NCBI GenBank assembly: GCA_001898385.1
Contig: MKTT01000087.1
Location: 1-64,000, forward strand
Direction: 5' to 3'
Length of the DNA stretch: 64,000 bases
DNA from: Planctomycetales bacterium 71-10
Lineage (GTDB): Bacteria > Planctomycetota > Planctomycetia > Isosphaerales > Isosphaeraceae
Positions 2,868-10,668 of the stretch are shown here, piece by piece. Positions within the stretch are counted from its first letter, which is position 1, and each line of letters begins with the position of its first letter. Under the pieces are notes generated by a model, which had not been told where the DNA came from, did no database searches, and worked only from the letters and a program-made list of their open reading frames with translations. The position numbers and the translations under genes are program-made.

Positions 2868-3302
2868 ATGACTCCACTCCTCGCAACCACGGACGACCCG
2901 ACCGCCCGGTCCGACGGCGGTTTCGAGTGGGGTGCCACCCTGATCCGCGTGCCGGACCTCGGGCCGGTCCGCTCGCGGCCGACGGCCGCGGAGGGATGGG
3001 AGCGGGCCTGGGCCGAGAAGGTCCGGGCCAGGTCGGCGGCGGCCCGCCCCGCTCGGCGACGGTTGCGGCGCGAGTTCCGCGTCGCGGCGTGCCTCTGCCT
3101 GGCGGTCGCCCCGCTGGTCACGGCCGTGGGGGCCTGGGGGCTGGCCCAGCCGAGGCGGGCGGGGGCCGCCGAGGTCTCCGTCGCGCCGGCGATCCGGCTG
3201 TCGATCAAGCCGGTCGAGGCCGAGCCGGAGGCCCGGGTGTTGCTGCCGGGCTACGTCCTTCCCGCCGAGCGTCGCGAGGAGCCGTCCCATGAGGGAAGTT
3301 GA
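2868..3302 (+). CDS. Single-pass membrane protein, first gene of the CpsD/ExeA-like cluster
   Basis: This 144-residue protein has a long basic N-terminal region (many Arg at 45-70), one membrane segment at about residues 72-94 (AACLCLAVAPLVTAVGAWGL) and a short outer tail rich in Pro and Glu. It overlaps the next gene by 14 bases, so the two are probably translationally coupled. I do not recognise the family. Because the next gene is a soluble CpsD-like ATPase, this protein could act as its membrane anchor, as CapA/Wzd-type proteins do for split bacterial tyrosine kinases. That role is inferred from position only. Confidence 0.6.
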   Translation: MTPLLATTDDPTARSDGGFEWGATLIRVPDLGPVRSRPTAAEGWERAWAEKVRARSAAARPARRRLRREFRVAACLCLAVAPLVTAVGAWGLAQPRRAGAAEVSVAPAIRLSIKPVEAEPEARVLLPGYVLPAERREEPSHEGS

Positions 3303-4080
3303 CGAGGCCCTGAGCCGGGCCTTCGCCATCAAGGGGGCGTCCGCGCCGTCCGCCGCCGAGGTCCCCCCCGCGCCCCACCGGCCGCGGAAGGGGTCGCCGG
3401 CGCGGCCGTCTCGCGTGTTCCTGCCGCCGGCCGCGGGGGCCGAGCCCGCGGGCCGGGGCCTGGCCTGGCCGGAGGTCGTCTCCGTGCTCGAAGGCGAGTG
3501 GGGCGATCGGTTCCTCCAGATGGGGGACCGGGTGCTGGAGGCTCGCGAGAAGGCGGGCGTCCGGGTGCTCCTCTTCACGAGCTGCCATCGCGCCGAGGGT
3601 CGGTCGACGCTGGTCCTGACGCTGGCCCGCACGCTGGCCCGCCGGCCGCTGCGGACCCTGATCGTGGACGCCGACCTCACCGGGCCGATGCTCGCGCGGT
3701 CGCTGGGGCTGCGGCCCGAGGTCGGGCTCGACGACGTGGTCGAGGACGGCAAGCCGCTCGACGACGCGATCATCGAGTCGCCGGCCGACAACCTCTGGAT
3801 CCTGCCGATGCGCTCGGCGGTCTCGCGGCCTCGCGACTTCCTGGCCTCCGCCGGCTGGGCCTGCACGATGGCCCGGCTCCGGCGCGAATTCGACCTGGTG
3901 CTGGTCGACGGCAGCCCGCTGTTCACCGGGCTCTCGGCGGCGGTGCTGCACAGCTCGGTCGACGCCGCGGTGCTGGTCCACAGCCGCGACGCGACCGGCG
4001 GGCGCTCGATCCTGCGGGCGCGCGAGGTGTTGGAGGGGGGCGGAGTCCCCCTGCTCGGCCTGGCCGAGACGTTCGCCTGA
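3289..4080 (+). CDS. CpsD/CapB-like P-loop ATPase with altered Walker A
   Basis: This 263-residue protein resembles the cytoplasmic half of bacterial tyrosine kinases and exosortase-locus autokinases that control exopolysaccharide synthesis. A Pro/Arg-rich linker (residues 1-65) leads into a P-loop fold. The Walker A-like loop reads SCHRAEGRSTL, with Arg105 in place of the usual Lys. Walker A' is LIVDADLTGP (Asp127) and Walker B is LVLVDGSP. No C-terminal tyrosine cluster is visible: the protein ends LLGLAETFA, where active kinases carry several Tyr. It may therefore be a regulatory or inactive homologue, or a ParA-like ATPase. It overlaps the upstream membrane-protein gene and lies 18 bases before the ExeA-like gene. 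Confidence 0.65.
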   Translation: MREVDEALSRAFAIKGASAPSAAEVPPAPHRPRKGSPARPSRVFLPPAAGAEPAGRGLAWPEVVSVLEGEWGDRFLQMGDRVLEAREKAGVRVLLFTSCHRAEGRSTLVLTLARTLARRPLRTLIVDADLTGPMLARSLGLRPEVGLDDVVEDGKPLDDAIIESPADNLWILPMRSAVSRPRDFLASAGWACTMARLRREFDLVLVDGSPLFTGLSAAVLHSSVDAAVLVHSRDATGGRSILRAREVLEGGGVPLLGLAETFA

Positions 4081-4098
4081 GCCGGCCGGAGGCCCCTC

Positions 4099-4899
4099 GT
4101 GTACGAGTCGCATTACGGGCTGCGTGACCGCCCCTTCGGAGAGACCGCGCTCGCGTCGGCGTACGTCGCGCTCCCCAGCCGAGACGCCGCCCTGCGACGG
4201 CTGCGCTACGGGCTGGAGTACGGCCAGGGGCCCGCCCTGCTCCACGGCGCGCCGGGGGTGGGCAAGTCGCTGGTCGCGAGCCGGCTCGCCGCCGACATGG
4301 CCGCGGCCGTCGTCCACCTGACCTGCCCCGCGATGTCGGCCGCCGACCTGATCGTGCACCTGGCCGAGGAATTCGGCGGCGGGCCGGTCGAACCGCCCGC
4401 GACGGCTGCCGGCGTGCGGCGGCTCCGCGAAGCCCTGGGCGAACTGGTCGCGGACGGTCGCAGGCCGCTCCTCGTGGTCGACGAGGCGCAGTCCGTCCCG
4501 GAAGATTCCTTCGAAGTCCTCCGCCTCCTCCTCAACTTCCAGGTGGACGGCGCGCCCGCGCTGGCCCTGGTGCTGGTCGGATCGGGCGAGGTCGCGTGGC
4601 GGCTCCCCGCGGCCCTCCTGGATCGCCTCGCCGCGCGTAGCCCCCTGCCCCCCCTGACCCTCTCCGAGACCGCGGCCTACGTCGCCGGCCGGCTCGACGC
4701 CGCGGGGGCGAGCCGGCCCCTGTTCGCCCCGGAGGCCATCGCCGCCCTGCACCACGCGGCGCTCGGCGTCCCCAGGCGGCTGAACCACGTCGCCGACCTG
4801 GCCCTCCTCATCGCGTTCGCCGACGGGGCCCCGATCGTCGACGCCCGCATCGTGGGCGTGGCCGCTCGCGAGTTCCAGGGCGACCCCCTGGCCGCCTGA
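4099..4899 (+). CDS. ExeA/GspA-like AAA ATPase
   Basis: This 266-residue protein starts at a GTG 18 bases after the CpsD-like gene. It opens with YESHYGLRDRPFGET, the typical start of ExeA/GspA-type secretion ATPases (YxxFGLxxxPF). Walker A is GAPGVGKS (Lys56) and Walker B is LLVVDEAQ (Asp128-Glu129). The C-terminal lid includes the usual GVPRRLNHVADLALL stretch. Relatives in PEP-CTERM/exosortase loci (TIGR03015) sit next to CpsD-like autokinases, as here, and are thought to act in export or assembly of exopolysaccharide or surface proteins. It lacks the long C-terminal peptidoglycan-binding part of classical ExeA. Confidence 0.75.
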   Translation: MYESHYGLRDRPFGETALASAYVALPSRDAALRRLRYGLEYGQGPALLHGAPGVGKSLVASRLAADMAAAVVHLTCPAMSAADLIVHLAEEFGGGPVEPPATAAGVRRLREALGELVADGRRPLLVVDEAQSVPEDSFEVLRLLLNFQVDGAPALALVLVGSGEVAWRLPAALLDRLAARSPLPPLTLSETAAYVAGRLDAAGASRPLFAPEAIAALHHAALGVPRRLNHVADLALLIAFADGAPIVDARIVGVAAREFQGDPLAA

Positions 4900-5068: not shown

Positions 5069-6955
5069 ATGGGACGTTCATCGGGGCCATGCATCCGGAG
5101 ATGGGACGGGGCGATCGTCGGCCTCTGGGCGGTCGGGCTGGCGACGGTCTTCGCGACCGCCCGCGCGCAGGGGACGGACGGCGGCGCGCCCGACGGCGTG
5201 GAGGTCCTGACGCGAGGGCCCGTCCACGAGGCGTTCGCCGTGCCCGTGGTCAACGACCCGAAACCCGGGCTGGTCGCCCCCAAGGCCCCGCCGGATCCGG
5301 TCGAGGAGATGCCCCCCGACCAGAAGCCGGCCGGCCAGGACGTGCGCTGGATCCCCGGCTACTGGAGCTGGGACCAGGCCCGTACGGACTTCGTCTGGGT
5401 CAGCGGCATCTGGCGCGAGCCGCCCCCGGGCCGGCAGTGGGTCCCCGGCTACTGGAACCCGGTCGCGAACGGCGTGCAGTGGATCCCCGGCGCGTGGATC
5501 CCGGTAGGCGGCTCGCCGGGGGCCCTGGACGCGAGCGTGACCGTGGCGCAGGGGGAGGCGGCCTACCTGCCGGAGCCCCCCGCCAGCCTGGAGGCGGGCC
5601 CCAACATCCCCCAGCCCGCCGGCGAGGTCTTCTGGAGCCCCGGCTGCTGGTTCTGGCGGCAGGGCCGATACGCCTGGCGGCCCGGGTTCTGGTCGATCGT
5701 CCAGCCGGCCTGGGTCTGGGTGCCGGCGCATTACGTCTGGACCCCCGGCGGCTGCCTGTTCGTCGAGGGCTACTGGGACCTGCCGCTGGGCGACCGCGGC
5801 ATCCTGTTCGCCCCCGTCTACTACGCGCGGCCGGTCTACCTCCAGCCGACGTACGTCTACACGCCGACGATCACCGTCGCCGCGCCGGGGCTGGTCGCCA
5901 ACCTGTTCGTGCAGCCGTCCTATCATCATTATTGCTTCGGTGATTATTATGATCGGACGTTCCTGACGGCCGGCGTCTTCCCCTGGTTCTCGTTCACCTA
6001 CGTCTCCGGGCCCCGCCCGCCGGCGTACTACGACCCGCTGTTCACCTTCTACGCCTCGGTGAACGTCCGCAGCAACCCGGGGTGGGCGGCGCATTGCCGC
6101 CAGGAATACATCCTCCGGCGCGACAACGTCGCGATGCGTCCGCCGCGCACCTATATCGAGCAGACGCGCATCGTCCAGAACAACATCAACATCACGCGCA
6201 ACACGACGATCATCAACAACAATGGCGGGAGATCCGGCCCCGGCCCGGCCGCTCTGATCGGCCGGCCGATCGAGCAGGTGGCGATGCGACGCCCCGAGGC
6301 GGGCATGCCCCGGCTGGAGCGGATCGACCCGGCGGCGCGGCAGGAATGGCGGGCGCGGTCGCGCGAGATGGCCGACTTCCGGCTCCAGCGAGCCGGGCGC
6401 GAGGTCGAGGCCGCGCCGCGGCCCGGCCCGCAGGCGCAGGCCCGGCCCCGGCCGTTCGCGATGCCGGCTTCTCCCGTGGCCGACCCGCCGGTCGAGCGAG
6501 CCATGGGGCCGATGCGCCGGCCCGAGCACGTCGCCAGGCCCGCGACTGTAGAAGCCCCCCGGCCCATGCCGCGGCACGTCAACCCCGGGATGAACACCCC
6601 GGCCCCGGGCACCGAGCGGCGCGAGGCGCCGATCGCGCGCGGCCCCGCCGCGAGCCTCCCCCGGCATCGCCCCGATCCGGCGGTCGCCGTCCCGCCCCAC
6701 ATCGAGCGGAAGGGGCCGGCCGCGAACGCCGGGCCTCGGCCGGGGGTCGCCCGCTCGCAAGCGTCCCCGCCCTTCGCGCCGCGGCACTTGCGCGAGGGGG
6801 CCTCGCCGGATCCCTCCTCGGGGCGCGGCCCGGTCCCGACGCACGCCGAAGGCCAGCGTCCCGCCGGCCGACGTCCCCCGCCGGCCCCCCGCCCGGCCGG
6901 CCCGGCCGCCCGCCGCGCCGCCGCGGAAGGAACGCGGCCCGGCCCGAATCCCTGA
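5069..6955 (+). CDS. Secreted WXXGXW-repeat protein
   Basis: This 628-residue protein has an N-terminal hydrophobic export signal (IVGLWAVGLATVFATARA). Residues about 85-270 contain repeated W-P-G-Y-W elements (WIPGYWSW, WVSGIW, WVPGYWNP, WIPGAWIP, WSPGCWFW, WRPGFW), matching the WXXGXW/YXWGXW repeat family (PF12779). The middle is Tyr/Phe rich. The last 230 residues are a basic Pro/Arg/Ala-rich tail with a short NNNG patch before it. Homologues are common planctomycete exported proteins of unknown role, likely wall- or matrix-associated. The 3' end runs close to a decayed mobile element, so part of the tail may come from inserted DNA. Confidence 0.65.
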   Translation: MGRSSGPCIRRWDGAIVGLWAVGLATVFATARAQGTDGGAPDGVEVLTRGPVHEAFAVPVVNDPKPGLVAPKAPPDPVEEMPPDQKPAGQDVRWIPGYWSWDQARTDFVWVSGIWREPPPGRQWVPGYWNPVANGVQWIPGAWIPVGGSPGALDASVTVAQGEAAYLPEPPASLEAGPNIPQPAGEVFWSPGCWFWRQGRYAWRPGFWSIVQPAWVWVPAHYVWTPGGCLFVEGYWDLPLGDRGILFAPVYYARPVYLQPTYVYTPTITVAAPGLVANLFVQPSYHHYCFGDYYDRTFLTAGVFPWFSFTYVSGPRPPAYYDPLFTFYASVNVRSNPGWAAHCRQEYILRRDNVAMRPPRTYIEQTRIVQNNINITRNTTIINNNGGRSGPGPAALIGRPIEQVAMRRPEAGMPRLERIDPAARQEWRARSREMADFRLQRAGREVEAAPRPGPQAQARPRPFAMPASPVADPPVERAMGPMRRPEHVARPATVEAPRPMPRHVNPGMNTPAPGTERREAPIARGPAASLPRHRPDPAVAVPPHIERKGPAANAGPRPGVARSQASPPFAPRHLREGASPDPSSGRGPVPTHAEGQRPAGRRPPPAPRPAGPAARRAAAEGTRPGPNP

Positions 6956-7321: not shown

Positions 7322-9949
7322 TTGACTCACGGCAGGGACGACGCCGGGGACGGGCTGGACGGGCTCTGCGATCCGGTGCGCGAGTGGTTCGAGGGAGCGT
7401 TCCCGGGCGGGCCGACCCCGGCGCAGCGGCTGGCGTGGCCGGCGATCGGGTCGGGCGAGCACGTCCTGCTGATCTCGCCGACCGGGACCGGGAAGACGCT
7501 GGCGGGGTTCCTGGCGATCGTCGACCGGCTGATGCGCGAGCACGCGGGGGATGGCTTGAAGCCCGGCCTGCGGTGCGTGTACGTCTCGCCGCTGCGCAGC
7601 CTGGGGTACGACGTCGAGAAGAACCTGGCGGTCCCGCTCCGCGGCCTCCAGCGGCTGCTGGGGCTGGGGAAGTGCCCGATCCGCGTGGGCGTGCGGACGG
7701 GCGACACGACGGCGCACGAGCGCCGGAAGCTGCGCGAGGGGCCGCCGCACATCCTCATCACCACTCCCGAGAGTCTCTCCCTCCTCCTGAGCCAGTCGGG
7801 ATGGGCCGAGCACTGGGGCGGGGTCGACCATCTGGTGGTCGACGAGGTCCACGCGCTCGCGGCGACGAAGCGCGGGGCGGACCTGGCGATCTCGCTGGAG
7901 CGGCTGGCGGACGCGGCCGGGGGCGATCCGGCGCGGGTCGGCCTGTCGGCGACGTGCCGGCCGCCGGAGCCCGTCGCGCGGTTCCTCGTGGGGTCGTCGC
8001 GATCGTGCCGAGTCGTCGAGGCCCCCCGCCCCGCCGGCTCGCACGCGATCGAGATCGAGGTGGAGTCGCTGCTCCGCCCCGGCGAGGGGCCGCATCGCGG
8101 GCTGACGTACAACCGGCTGATGCGCCGAGTCCGGCGCGCGGTCGTCGACAACCGGACGACGGTCGTCTTCGCCAACAGCCGGCCGATGACCGAGAAGATC
8201 GCCCACGATCTCCGCAACGCCCCGCCCGGCCGCGGCGAGGATCGCGACGCCTTCGACGGCGAGGCCGAGGTCGCCGTGCATCACTCGGCGCTGGACGCCT
8301 CGCGGCGGCGGGACGTGGAGGAGCGGCTGAAGGCGGGGAGGCTGCGGGCCGTCGTCACCAGCACCAGCCTGGAACTCGGCGTGGACATCGGCTCGGCCGA
8401 CCTGACGGTCCAGGTGGGATTGCCCGGCGGCGTGGCGCGTTGCGTCCAGCGCATCGGACGGTCGGGGCATCGCGTCGGCGGCCGGGCGCGGGGGCTGATC
8501 CTGGCCGCGACCGCCGCCGAGGTCGCCGCCGCCGCCGTCACAGCCCGCGCGGCGAGGGCCGGGGAGATCGAGCCGCTGAAGCCCGCAGCCTCGCCGCTCG
8601 ACGTCGTCTGCCAGCAGCTCATCGGCATGTCCTGCCGGGGCGAGACTTCCATCGACGCCGCCTACGACCTGCTCCGCAAGGCCGCGCCGACGGCCGACCT
8701 GGGCCGCGGCGACTTCCTGGCGTGCCTCGACTTCCTCGCGGGCGAGCTGTCGGTGCCGGCCGGCGCGTTCGAGCCCGAGCCGGGCGCGGCACCGCGGTGG
8801 ACGTCGCCGCGGATCTGGCGGCGCAACGGCTGGTTCGGCGTGCGATCGGGCCGTGTCAAACGCTGGTTCTGGAGCAACGTGGGGACGATCAACGCCGAGG
8901 AATCGGCCGCGGTGGTCGCCGACGGGGCGTCGGTGGGGACGGTCGAGGGGGCCTACGCCGAGCGGCTGTCGCCCGGCGATCGGTTCGTGCTGGACGGCCG
9001 CACGCTGGAGTTCCGCCGGTTGGACGGCCTGGTGCTGCACGCGAAGCACGTCGGCGGCGAGGCCGGGGCGCTGCCGGTCTGGCACAGCGACCGCCAGGCG
9101 CTCTCGACCGAGCTGGCCGCCGAACTGGCCGCCTTCCGCGCCGAGGCGTCGCGACGCTCGGCCTGCGACGGCCCCGAGGCCGTCCGCGCGTGGCTCGCCG
9201 AGGCCCTGCAACTCGACGCCTGCGCTGCGGACGTGGTCGCCGAATTGGTCGAGGCCCAGGACCGCTGGAGCGAGACGCCGGGCGTCGACGTGCTGCTGAT
9301 CGAGGAGTTCCAGACCCCGCTGGAGCCGGGCTGGACCTACGCCTTCCACGCGCCGTTGAATCGATCGGCCAGCGAGGCGCTGGGGCGGGCGGTCTCGGCG
9401 CGATTGGGCCGGCGGCACGGCCGCGACGCCGCGTTCCAGCCGGCCGACCTGGGCTGGACGATCCGCATCCCGGACGACGACGCGCGGCTCGACCCGGCCG
9501 ACTTCGCTGGCGTCGCGTCACTCGACGACCTGGAGGCCGACGTCCTGGAGGGGGTGGACCGGGGCGAGTTGGCGGCGCGGCGGTTCCGCCACGTCGCGTC
9601 CACCGCGCTGATGGTCCTGCGCAACCCGGAGCCGGGCAAGCGCGTGCGGGTCGGCGGGATGAACTGGGTCTCCACGCGGCTGTATCCGCTGGTGAAGGCC
9701 GCATGCCCCGACCACCCCCTGCTCCGCGAGACGCGCCGGGAGATCCTCAACGACGTCCTCGACGTGCCGGCCGCCGCGCGTTGGCTGGCGACGAGCCCGG
9801 CGATCCGCCTGCGACGCCTCCCCGGCCCCTCCCCCTTCGCCGCCGCCTGGATCGCCCCAGGCGGCGACGAGGCGATGCGGCACGATTCGCCCGACGACGC
9901 CCTGCGCCGGCTCCACGCCCGGATGACCGCGGCGTCGGGGGGGGCGTGA
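7322..9949 (+). CDS. Lhr-like DEXH helicase (ligase-associated type)
   Basis: This 875-residue superfamily 2 helicase starts at a TTG preceded by GGGGAGG. Motifs in order: Walker A SPTGTGKT (Lys58), TTPESL, DEVH box at 174-177, LSATCRPP, a second RecA domain with TSTSLELGVDIG and QRIGRSGHR, then a long Lhr-type C-terminal region. Length and order fit the ligase-associated DEXH helicase family (TIGR04121), which acts in DNA repair with an ATP-dependent ligase, an exonuclease and the phosphoesterase PdeM. Only PdeM follows here, sharing one base with the stop codon (TGATG). The ligase and exonuclease are not in the window. Confidence 0.85.
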   Translation: MTHGRDDAGDGLDGLCDPVREWFEGAFPGGPTPAQRLAWPAIGSGEHVLLISPTGTGKTLAGFLAIVDRLMREHAGDGLKPGLRCVYVSPLRSLGYDVEKNLAVPLRGLQRLLGLGKCPIRVGVRTGDTTAHERRKLREGPPHILITTPESLSLLLSQSGWAEHWGGVDHLVVDEVHALAATKRGADLAISLERLADAAGGDPARVGLSATCRPPEPVARFLVGSSRSCRVVEAPRPAGSHAIEIEVESLLRPGEGPHRGLTYNRLMRRVRRAVVDNRTTVVFANSRPMTEKIAHDLRNAPPGRGEDRDAFDGEAEVAVHHSALDASRRRDVEERLKAGRLRAVVTSTSLELGVDIGSADLTVQVGLPGGVARCVQRIGRSGHRVGGRARGLILAATAAEVAAAAVTARAARAGEIEPLKPAASPLDVVCQQLIGMSCRGETSIDAAYDLLRKAAPTADLGRGDFLACLDFLAGELSVPAGAFEPEPGAAPRWTSPRIWRRNGWFGVRSGRVKRWFWSNVGTINAEESAAVVADGASVGTVEGAYAERLSPGDRFVLDGRTLEFRRLDGLVLHAKHVGGEAGALPVWHSDRQALSTELAAELAAFRAEASRRSACDGPEAVRAWLAEALQLDACAADVVAELVEAQDRWSETPGVDVLLIEEFQTPLEPGWTYAFHAPLNRSASEALGRAVSARLGRRHGRDAAFQPADLGWTIRIPDDDARLDPADFAGVASLDDLEADVLEGVDRGELAARRFRHVASTALMVLRNPEPGKRVRVGGMNWVSTRLYPLVKAACPDHPLLRETRREILNDVLDVPAAARWLATSPAIRLRRLPGPSPFAAAWIAPGGDEAMRHDSPDDALRRLHARMTAASGGA

Positions 9950-10668
9950 TGGGCGGCGTCCTCGAACACGAGGGCTGGCTGCTCACTCCCGAGGGCGCCG
10001 CGATCCGGCCCGAGGAGGCGACGGCCGTGGTGGCCGACGTCCACCTGGGCTATGAATGGGCTCGCGGGGCGGCCGGCGACTGCGTGCCGGCGCACTCGCT
10101 GGCCGAGACGCGCGACCGGCTGACGAGGGCGTTCGCGCGGGCGGAGGTGCGCCGGCTGGTCGTCGCCGGGGACCTGGTGGAATCGCCGCGGCCCTGCGCG
10201 CGGACGGCGGCCGACGTGGCGAGGCTGGGCGACTGGCTGGCGTCGCGGGGCGTGGAACTGCTGGTCGTCCCCGGCAATCACGACCGGAGCCTGTCGGCGT
10301 CGCCGAGGCCCCCCGCGATCGCCGCGACGGTGGACGTGGGGGGCTGGACCATCCAGCACGGAGACAGGCCGACGGTCGGGGCTCGCGCGGTGATCGGCCA
10401 TCATCATCCGGTGTTGCGGGCGTCGGGGCTCGCCTCGCCCTGCTTCCTGGCCGGCCCGACCCTGCTGGTCCTGCCGGCGTTCTCCGGCAACGCGGCGGGG
10501 CTGGACGTGGCCTCCGTCACCTCGCCCGCGGCCTGGTCCGGGGCGGGCCTGCGGTGCCTGGCGGCGACGAGCGACGCGCTGCTGGATTTCGGGCCGGCGG
10601 CCACCCTGGCCGCCCGCCTCCGCGCGGCCGCCCGCCCTCGCATTGATCGGGCCCGGCGAGGCCATTAG
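9949..10668 (+). CDS. pdeM: PdeM-like metallophosphoesterase (ligase-associated)
   Basis: This 239-residue calcineurin-like phosphoesterase has metal-binding motifs in order: VADVHLGYEW, VVAGDLVES, VVPGNHDRS and IGHHHPVL. The size and its coupling to the helicase match the ligase-associated phosphoesterase PdeM (TIGR04123), which processes DNA ends in bacterial repair. The ATG was chosen because it overlaps the helicase stop as TGATG; longer in-frame versions run inside the helicase gene and are not real. The usual partners LigC-type ligase and Lhr-associated exonuclease are absent nearby. Confidence 0.8.
   Translation: MGGVLEHEGWLLTPEGAAIRPEEATAVVADVHLGYEWARGAAGDCVPAHSLAETRDRLTRAFARAEVRRLVVAGDLVESPRPCARTAADVARLGDWLASRGVELLVVPGNHDRSLSASPRPPAIAATVDVGGWTIQHGDRPTVGARAVIGHHHPVLRASGLASPCFLAGPTLLVLPAFSGNAAGLDVASVTSPAAWSGAGLRCLAATSDALLDFGPAATLAARLRAAARPRIDRARRGH

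Follow-up and report, generated by a model that had tools for sequence, protein, structure and literature searches.

The window analysed here comprises 64,000 nucleotides at the start of contig MKTT01000087.1 (C87) in the 7.7-Mb genome of Planctomycetales bacterium 71-10, a member of the Isosphaeraceae whose named relatives include Paludisphaera soli, Singulisphaera acidiphila and Tautonia sociabilis. ORF calling confirmed a three-gene cluster at 2868-4899, which a preliminary description had reported, consisting of gene A (2868-3302), gene B (3289-4080) and gene C (4099-4899), all on the forward strand. Genes A and B share 14 nt, the stop codon of A included, and gene C has a GTG start lying 18 nt 3' of the B stop codon. 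The same A-B-C order was found across the Isosphaeraceae and in related families, and therefore the trio is not a chance arrangement; moreover, the A-B overlap distance is identical in 30/34 Isosphaeraceae. No pattern resembling a sigma-70 promoter or a terminator turned up between 2500 and 5200, which is a weak test in a planctomycete. The four flanking genes scanned with Pfam include no polysaccharide gene, in keeping with the earlier claim that none adjoins the cluster, and no PCP-2 partner of a polysaccharide locus is present among the scanned flanking genes of the trio. The gene at 989-2545 gave a weak transglutaminase-elicitor match below cut-off (E 0.85), the gene at 5069-6955 contains WXXGXW repeats, the gene at 7322-9949 encodes an Lhr-type helicase, and 10056-10646 had no Pfam match. 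The 989-2545 gene (forward strand) encodes a secreted protein of 518 aa with GHCLGGA and HYEYSIVY stretches, which is 56-85% identical across the Isosphaeraceae, and the 628-aa product of 5069-6955 (forward strand) has three of its repeats followed by a long Pro/Arg-rich tail. The contig begins with a short repeat-rich protein of APxKIAPAPQAP units (1-524 on the reverse strand, and 1-699), open at the contig end. A defence system was also considered and rejected, as PADLOC returned one weak partial match, between B and PDC-M28B (E 6e-5, 20 bits); A and C had no match.

Gene A, the first of the trio, is an ORF conserved in position among relatives and encodes a single-pass membrane protein of 144 aa with no Pfam or NCBIfam match. 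A hydropathy scan located a lone hydrophobic helix at residues 72-90 (3081-3137), C-terminal of the basic stretch RRRLRREFR, which under the positive-inside rule suggests that the protein is probably oriented with its N-terminus inside. The conserved motif TLIRVPDL (residues 24-31, 2937-2960), N-terminal of the helix, is thus predicted to be cytoplasmic, and the tail motif VLLPGYVLP (residues 124-132, 3237-3263) is predicted to be extracytoplasmic. With motif patterns that, for A and B alike, were composed after the sequences had been viewed, an LIRVPDL-like motif was found in 31/34 A proteins of the Isosphaeraceae and 18/26 of other families (shuffled sequences gave means of 0.25 and 0.28). 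The tail motif is present in 33/34 Isosphaeraceae, with VVFPGYLLPDD in relatives, and the tail in other families often reads RLxGxI (12/26 against a shuffle mean of 1.2). In the Isosphaeraceae and in other families alike, A is a one-helix protein. A role as polysaccharide co-polymerase was rejected for it, since such proteins have two membrane helices and a large periplasmic domain, and A has a single hydrophobic helix followed by a tail of 54 residues.

Gene C encodes an ExeA/TIGR03015-like AAA ATPase of 266 aa, which matches TIGR03015 below cut-off (E 4.4e-33, 114.9 bits against 324.5) and Pfam AAA_22 above it (E 1.2e-18, 68.1 bits against 27). Its P-loop, GAPGVGKS (residues 50-57, 4246-4269), is intact, and alignment places Walker B at LLVVDEAQ (residues 124-131, 4468-4491). 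The P-loop Lys is retained in 53 of the 54 aligned C proteins, that of locus L072 among them; the sole exception is the orthologue at L153:3999-5177 (genome G130), where Gln replaces Lys (GSGQT). Within its own genome, C is the single match to its profile at such length and strength, the other four matches being weak and lying in other, mostly long, frames.

Gene B encodes a CpsD-like protein of 263 aa that falls below the cut-offs of both TIGR01007 (E 1.9e-23, 83.1 bits against 108.05) and TIGR03018 (74.2 bits against 230.65). The first Foldseek matches of its structure model (mean pLDDT 86.1) are the BY-kinase domains of CapAB, Wzc and VpsO, with a VIA alignment to CapAB 4jlv over 200 residues (Z 26.7, rmsd 1.9), a Z of about 26 to Wzc and 16.2 to MinD 1g3q. 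A profile search against solved structures was in agreement (VpsO 7.5e-28, CapB 7.3e-27, MinD 5.2e-21), and since BY-kinase matches stand ahead of MinD in both searches, B descends from BY kinases and is not a MinD/ParA protein proper. At its N-terminus, B has the helix motif VDEALSRAF (residues 4-12, 3298-3324; helix 2-16 in the model), which occurs in the loose form (V/I)DxAL in 34/38 Isosphaeraceae and in the strict form MSxxDxAFI(R/K)AY in 13/28 other-family B proteins. The P-loop SCHRAEGRST (residues 98-107, 3580-3609) carries Arg105, encoded by CGG at 3601-3603, in place of the catalytic Lys, confirming the substitution that the preliminary description had noticed. The Walker A' region LIVDADLTGP (residues 124-133, 3658-3687) and the Walker B region DLVLVDGSPLF (residues 202-212, 3892-3924) retain all three Walker Asps in the window protein. 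Asp127 is found in 36/38 and Asp129 in 38/38 Isosphaeraceae; in other families Asp129 is kept in 15/28 and lost in 13/28, and Asp207 is kept in 66/66 (38/38 in the Isosphaeraceae).

The C-terminus of B ends in GLAETFA and has no Tyr among its final 40 residues, so that the absence of a Tyr tail, also proposed earlier, was borne out. Across the family, the last 40 residues contain no Tyr in 54/66 members, one in 11/66 and two in 1/66, and at least two Tyr were found in the tails of 15/20 CpsD-like controls and of all 12 closed Wzc ORFs. The EX2RX2R motif is likewise absent from all 66 B proteins and present in 13/20 CpsD-like and 12/22 Wzc-type controls, although its absence from the remaining 7/20 and 10/22 controls makes this a soft test. 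B is therefore a BY fold without the catalytic Lys or the Tyr tail and has the sequence features of a BY pseudokinase. The loss of kinase function that these features indicate is well supported, and the earlier term 'non-kinase' is strongly supported by the sequences. 'Reduced', another term used, says too little, since the trio occurs throughout the class, has its own motifs and is not a decayed remnant; the 'regulatory' role suggested with it is putative.

Close B homologues (55-100% identity) were found in 32/37 Isosphaeraceae genomes, the own genome included, and in 38/45 genomes of a larger survey; the genomes without B were G010, G024, G026, G027, G036, G165 and G175, among which G026, G036, G165 and G175 are just 64-77% complete. 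Arg stands at the P-loop Lys position in all 38 Isosphaeraceae B proteins, and its codons are CGG in 21, CGC in 10, CGA in 5 and CGT in 2. The use of all four CGN codons, with silent changes common and replacements absent, indicates that Arg105 is under selection, and the same two results rule out a sequencing error or a local change. In B proteins of other families (n=29), the residue is Arg in 13, Cys in 8, Ala in 3, Thr in 2, Val in 2 and Ser in 1; these comprise 28 proteins accepted by the tree (Arg in 12) and that of L191 (genome G054; Arg), which was included by profile match only and is absent from the tree. Most close homologues might have been expected to carry Lys if the Arg were a local feature, but Lys was found in 0/67 B members (38 Isosphaeraceae, the 28 and L191), the other-family members being a subset of the profile matches, chosen because they reached the WPx region or stood alone, in which a Lys-bearing member could be missed. 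L072 (genome G056), whose P-loop residue is Thr, was left out of these counts because in the tree it joins L217 and lies outside the B clade. The tree contained 91 rows, and the 49 B rows (21 Isosphaeraceae and 28 others) are separated from the rest by a branch whose support is 100/96, or 100/98 without the P-loop columns.

Among the controls, the P-loop Lys is present in 40/42. Wzc-type kinases, 20 from Planctomycetia and two from the own genome, have it in 21/22, the exception being L155 with Arg, and of their 21 genomes, counting the own one, 14 also yielded a B protein that was read; CpsD-like proteins of other planctomycete classes have it in 19/20, the exception being L217 with Thr. These two exceptions mean that loss of the Lys alone is not unique to the B family. 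In L155 (G033:C83), the P-loop of the Wzc-type kinase domain reads HEGRTT, an independent Arg change outside the B clade.

These residue patterns bear on the possibility that B has remained active as an ATPase or kinase, with Arg substituting for Lys, as in the ATPases with a variant KGGVGR motif. The Arg frozen throughout the Isosphaeraceae and the retained Walker Asps would fit such an enzyme, and intact Asps in Walker A' and B may even permit some ATPase activity with Arg, which speaks against our main reading. NF047398, which describes the KGGVGR variant, also matches B (E 3e-6, below cut-off); however, it matches the Lys-bearing kinases of L210 and L211 as well, so its match to B says little. 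Moreover, 16/29 other-family B proteins have Cys, Ala, Thr, Val or Ser at this position, and this variation, together with the loss of Asp129 in other families, means that catalysis cannot be the shared function of the family. With the Tyr tail missing too, we regard an active B as unlikely.

With regard to linkage, C is found in the B locus in 36/38 Isosphaeraceae (one miss is a contig end) and in 20/28 loci of other families. B stands without a nearby C in 8/28 other-family loci, in L191 and in G020, whose genome contains no C anywhere; in seven of the eight other genomes without a nearby C, the ExeA-type proteins found elsewhere are all more distant, and in G126 there is none at 1e-10. In such loci B must act without C. 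B and C are jointly absent from G010, G024, G027, G036 and G165. In a search of 352 genomes from other classes of the phylum with a wide B profile, the best match in a listing ordered by E was Lys-bearing (E 4.8e-40), and among the matches listed, the B proteins of Planctomycetia scored E 7e-57 or better and L191 4.4e-38; within this sample, the B family thus looks confined to Planctomycetia.

The neighbouring genes are less constant than the trio. In most Isosphaeraceae loci the 989-2545 gene adjoins the trio, and a metH-type gene cluster, one member of which is a methionine synthase by Pfam, adjoins the module in 22/29 loci of other families, as judged from neighbour genes called with a custom gene caller that mis-called some high-GC ORFs. 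In these 22 loci (L069, L070, L071 and L125-L148), the metH-type gene is usually divergent from the module. Such adjacency might suggest that the trio is functionally tied to one neighbour or the other, but the trio remains constant as the neighbour changes between families. In addition, the 989-2545 gene is kept in 4/5 Isosphaeraceae genomes without B and C, lies on another contig than the trio in G006 and G016, and was not found in G040 or G072. Its retention without B and C and its unlinked copies weaken the coupling, and a functional tie to a neighbour is very improbable.

The origin of the module can be traced in other planctomycete classes, where the likeness to a pair of CpsD-like kinase and ExeA-like ATPase, recognized in the preliminary description, is matched by pairs that bear the Lys. 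A C-like ATPase was found in 9/20 fetched CpsD-like loci of these classes, and in 5/5 loci scanned, a TIGR03007-type co-polymerase (below cut-off) lies beside the Lys-bearing kinase-ATPase pair. The order is co-polymerase, ATPase, kinase in 4/5 loci and co-polymerase, kinase, ATPase in L224, so that gene A occupies the place of the co-polymerase in the trio. Descent of B from a tyrosine autokinase of the CpsD/XrtA type is the best explanation of these data. A second locus of G040 (L242:2952-7518) encodes a co-polymerase-like protein with two TM segments, an ExeA-like ATPase and a BY-fold protein that has a coiled coil and no P-loop at all; it adjoins an epimerase and a TrpF-like ORF, and L243 is arranged similarly. 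The P-loop-less protein beside an ExeA-like ATPase in L242 suggests that loss of catalysis may have occurred more than once.

Such kinship raises the question of whether the trio is a BY pseudokinase with its ATPase that serves a polysaccharide pathway, with the co-polymerase supplied in trans as a partner of the EcpK/HfsB type. The relation to co-polymerase-linked pairs, the composition of L242 in G040 and the precedent of EcpK are in favour of this reading. However, the scanned flanking genes of the trio lack polysaccharide functions, it is always gene A that lies nearer, and no co-polymerase match was obtained among trio members, eight other-family A proteins having been scanned. Of the 28 genomes tested, 25 have exosortase; G040, G063 and G066 carry the trio but no exosortase, and G010, G024 and G027 have exosortase but neither B nor C. 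The exosortases of the own genome sit 0.3 and 4.7 kb from its own Lys-bearing Wzc kinases. Coupling of the trio to exosortase is thereby weakened, as B and C do not track it, and we consider service to a polysaccharide pathway with a partner in trans improbable.

The reading we favour, and hold to be slightly more probable than not, is that the BY pseudokinase B tethers and controls the AAA ATPase C at the membrane anchor A. B would have stopped being a kinase and would serve as a non-enzymatic adaptor between C and A, a proposal that draws on the scaffold role proposed for EcpK and the damping by FleN, described below. The loss of Lys, Tyr tail and EX2RX2R makes phosphorylation cycling and BY-kinase rings unlikely, and in the Isosphaeraceae, the frozen Arg with intact Walker Asps suggests that B may have kept the ability to bind nucleotide, with turnover low or absent. 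On this proposal, B would bind the cytoplasmic N-terminal LIxVPDL motif of A and also the active ATPase C, might position C at the inner membrane and might turn its ATPase on or off. A, with its tail and second motif outside, could then transmit C's state through the membrane to a step of envelope assembly, and the process served would most likely be one that exports or assembles a surface polymer or protein. The contacts among A, B and C, the regulation of C by B, the adaptor role of B and the process served are all parts that we infer, and the B genes that have no C nearby count against this reading. A bolder and more doubtful extension is that the trio might be an undescribed trans-envelope ATPase machine of Planctomycetia outside polysaccharide and exosortase pathways. 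In it, a BY-fold pseudo-ATPase would act as a nucleotide-sensing clutch through which an AAA motor is coupled to a transducer that has one helix and, on either side of the membrane, a docking motif, and the frozen Arg of the Isosphaeraceae would re-tune the pocket so that ATP is held but not turned over.

If B acts in this way, the trio would represent a second natural case, spread over a clade, in which BY-kinase machinery works without phosphorylation, with an AAA ATPase attached and away from polysaccharide genes. To our knowledge, no role has been established for the TIGR03015-type ATPase beside BY kinases, and three small genes with defined motifs make that role testable. The annotation 'CpsD/CapB tyrosine kinase' is wrong for the B family. 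No description of the trio was found in searches of open-licence literature on planctomycete exosortases, ExeA, CpsD and bacterial tyrosine kinases. The BY pseudokinases EcpK and HfsB were already known; what is new is a trio present throughout the class and uncoupled from polysaccharide genes, together with the motifs in A and B.

Among known systems, the tyrosine autokinase TIGR03018 and the ATPase TIGR03015 of XrtA/PEP-CTERM loci are the same pair of protein types as B and C, and the nearest outgroup is formed by canonical pairs from other planctomycete classes; the trio differs in scoring below both cut-offs and in lacking the Lys, the Tyr tail and an adjoining co-polymerase or exosortase. 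C shares its AAA type with ExeA/GspA of type II secretion but is, at 266 aa, an AAA domain alone; ExeA and GspA possess membrane and peptidoglycan-binding parts, both of which C lacks. A mechanistic analogy for B and C might be offered by FleN, a MinD-type protein reported to bind and damp its AAA+ ATPase partner (PMC10723142), so that a protein of MinD/BY-type fold acts on an AAA+ ATPase. Unlike the trio, this system has a transcription factor, FleQ, as the ATPase, a Lys-bearing ATPase in FleN, and no membrane anchor gene. Parallels to B itself are provided by EcpK of Myxococcus xanthus and HfsB of Caulobacter, which share with B a BY-kinase fold without catalytic motifs or Tyr tail and for which a scaffold role has been proposed. 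This role was proposed for EcpK from two-hybrid data and modelling, and EcpK reportedly lacks all three Walker motifs and partners a PCP-2 protein in an EPS locus (PMC12004946). B differs from EcpK, so described, in keeping the Walker Asps, in having an AAA ATPase and a one-helix protein as its partners, and in lying outside EPS loci.
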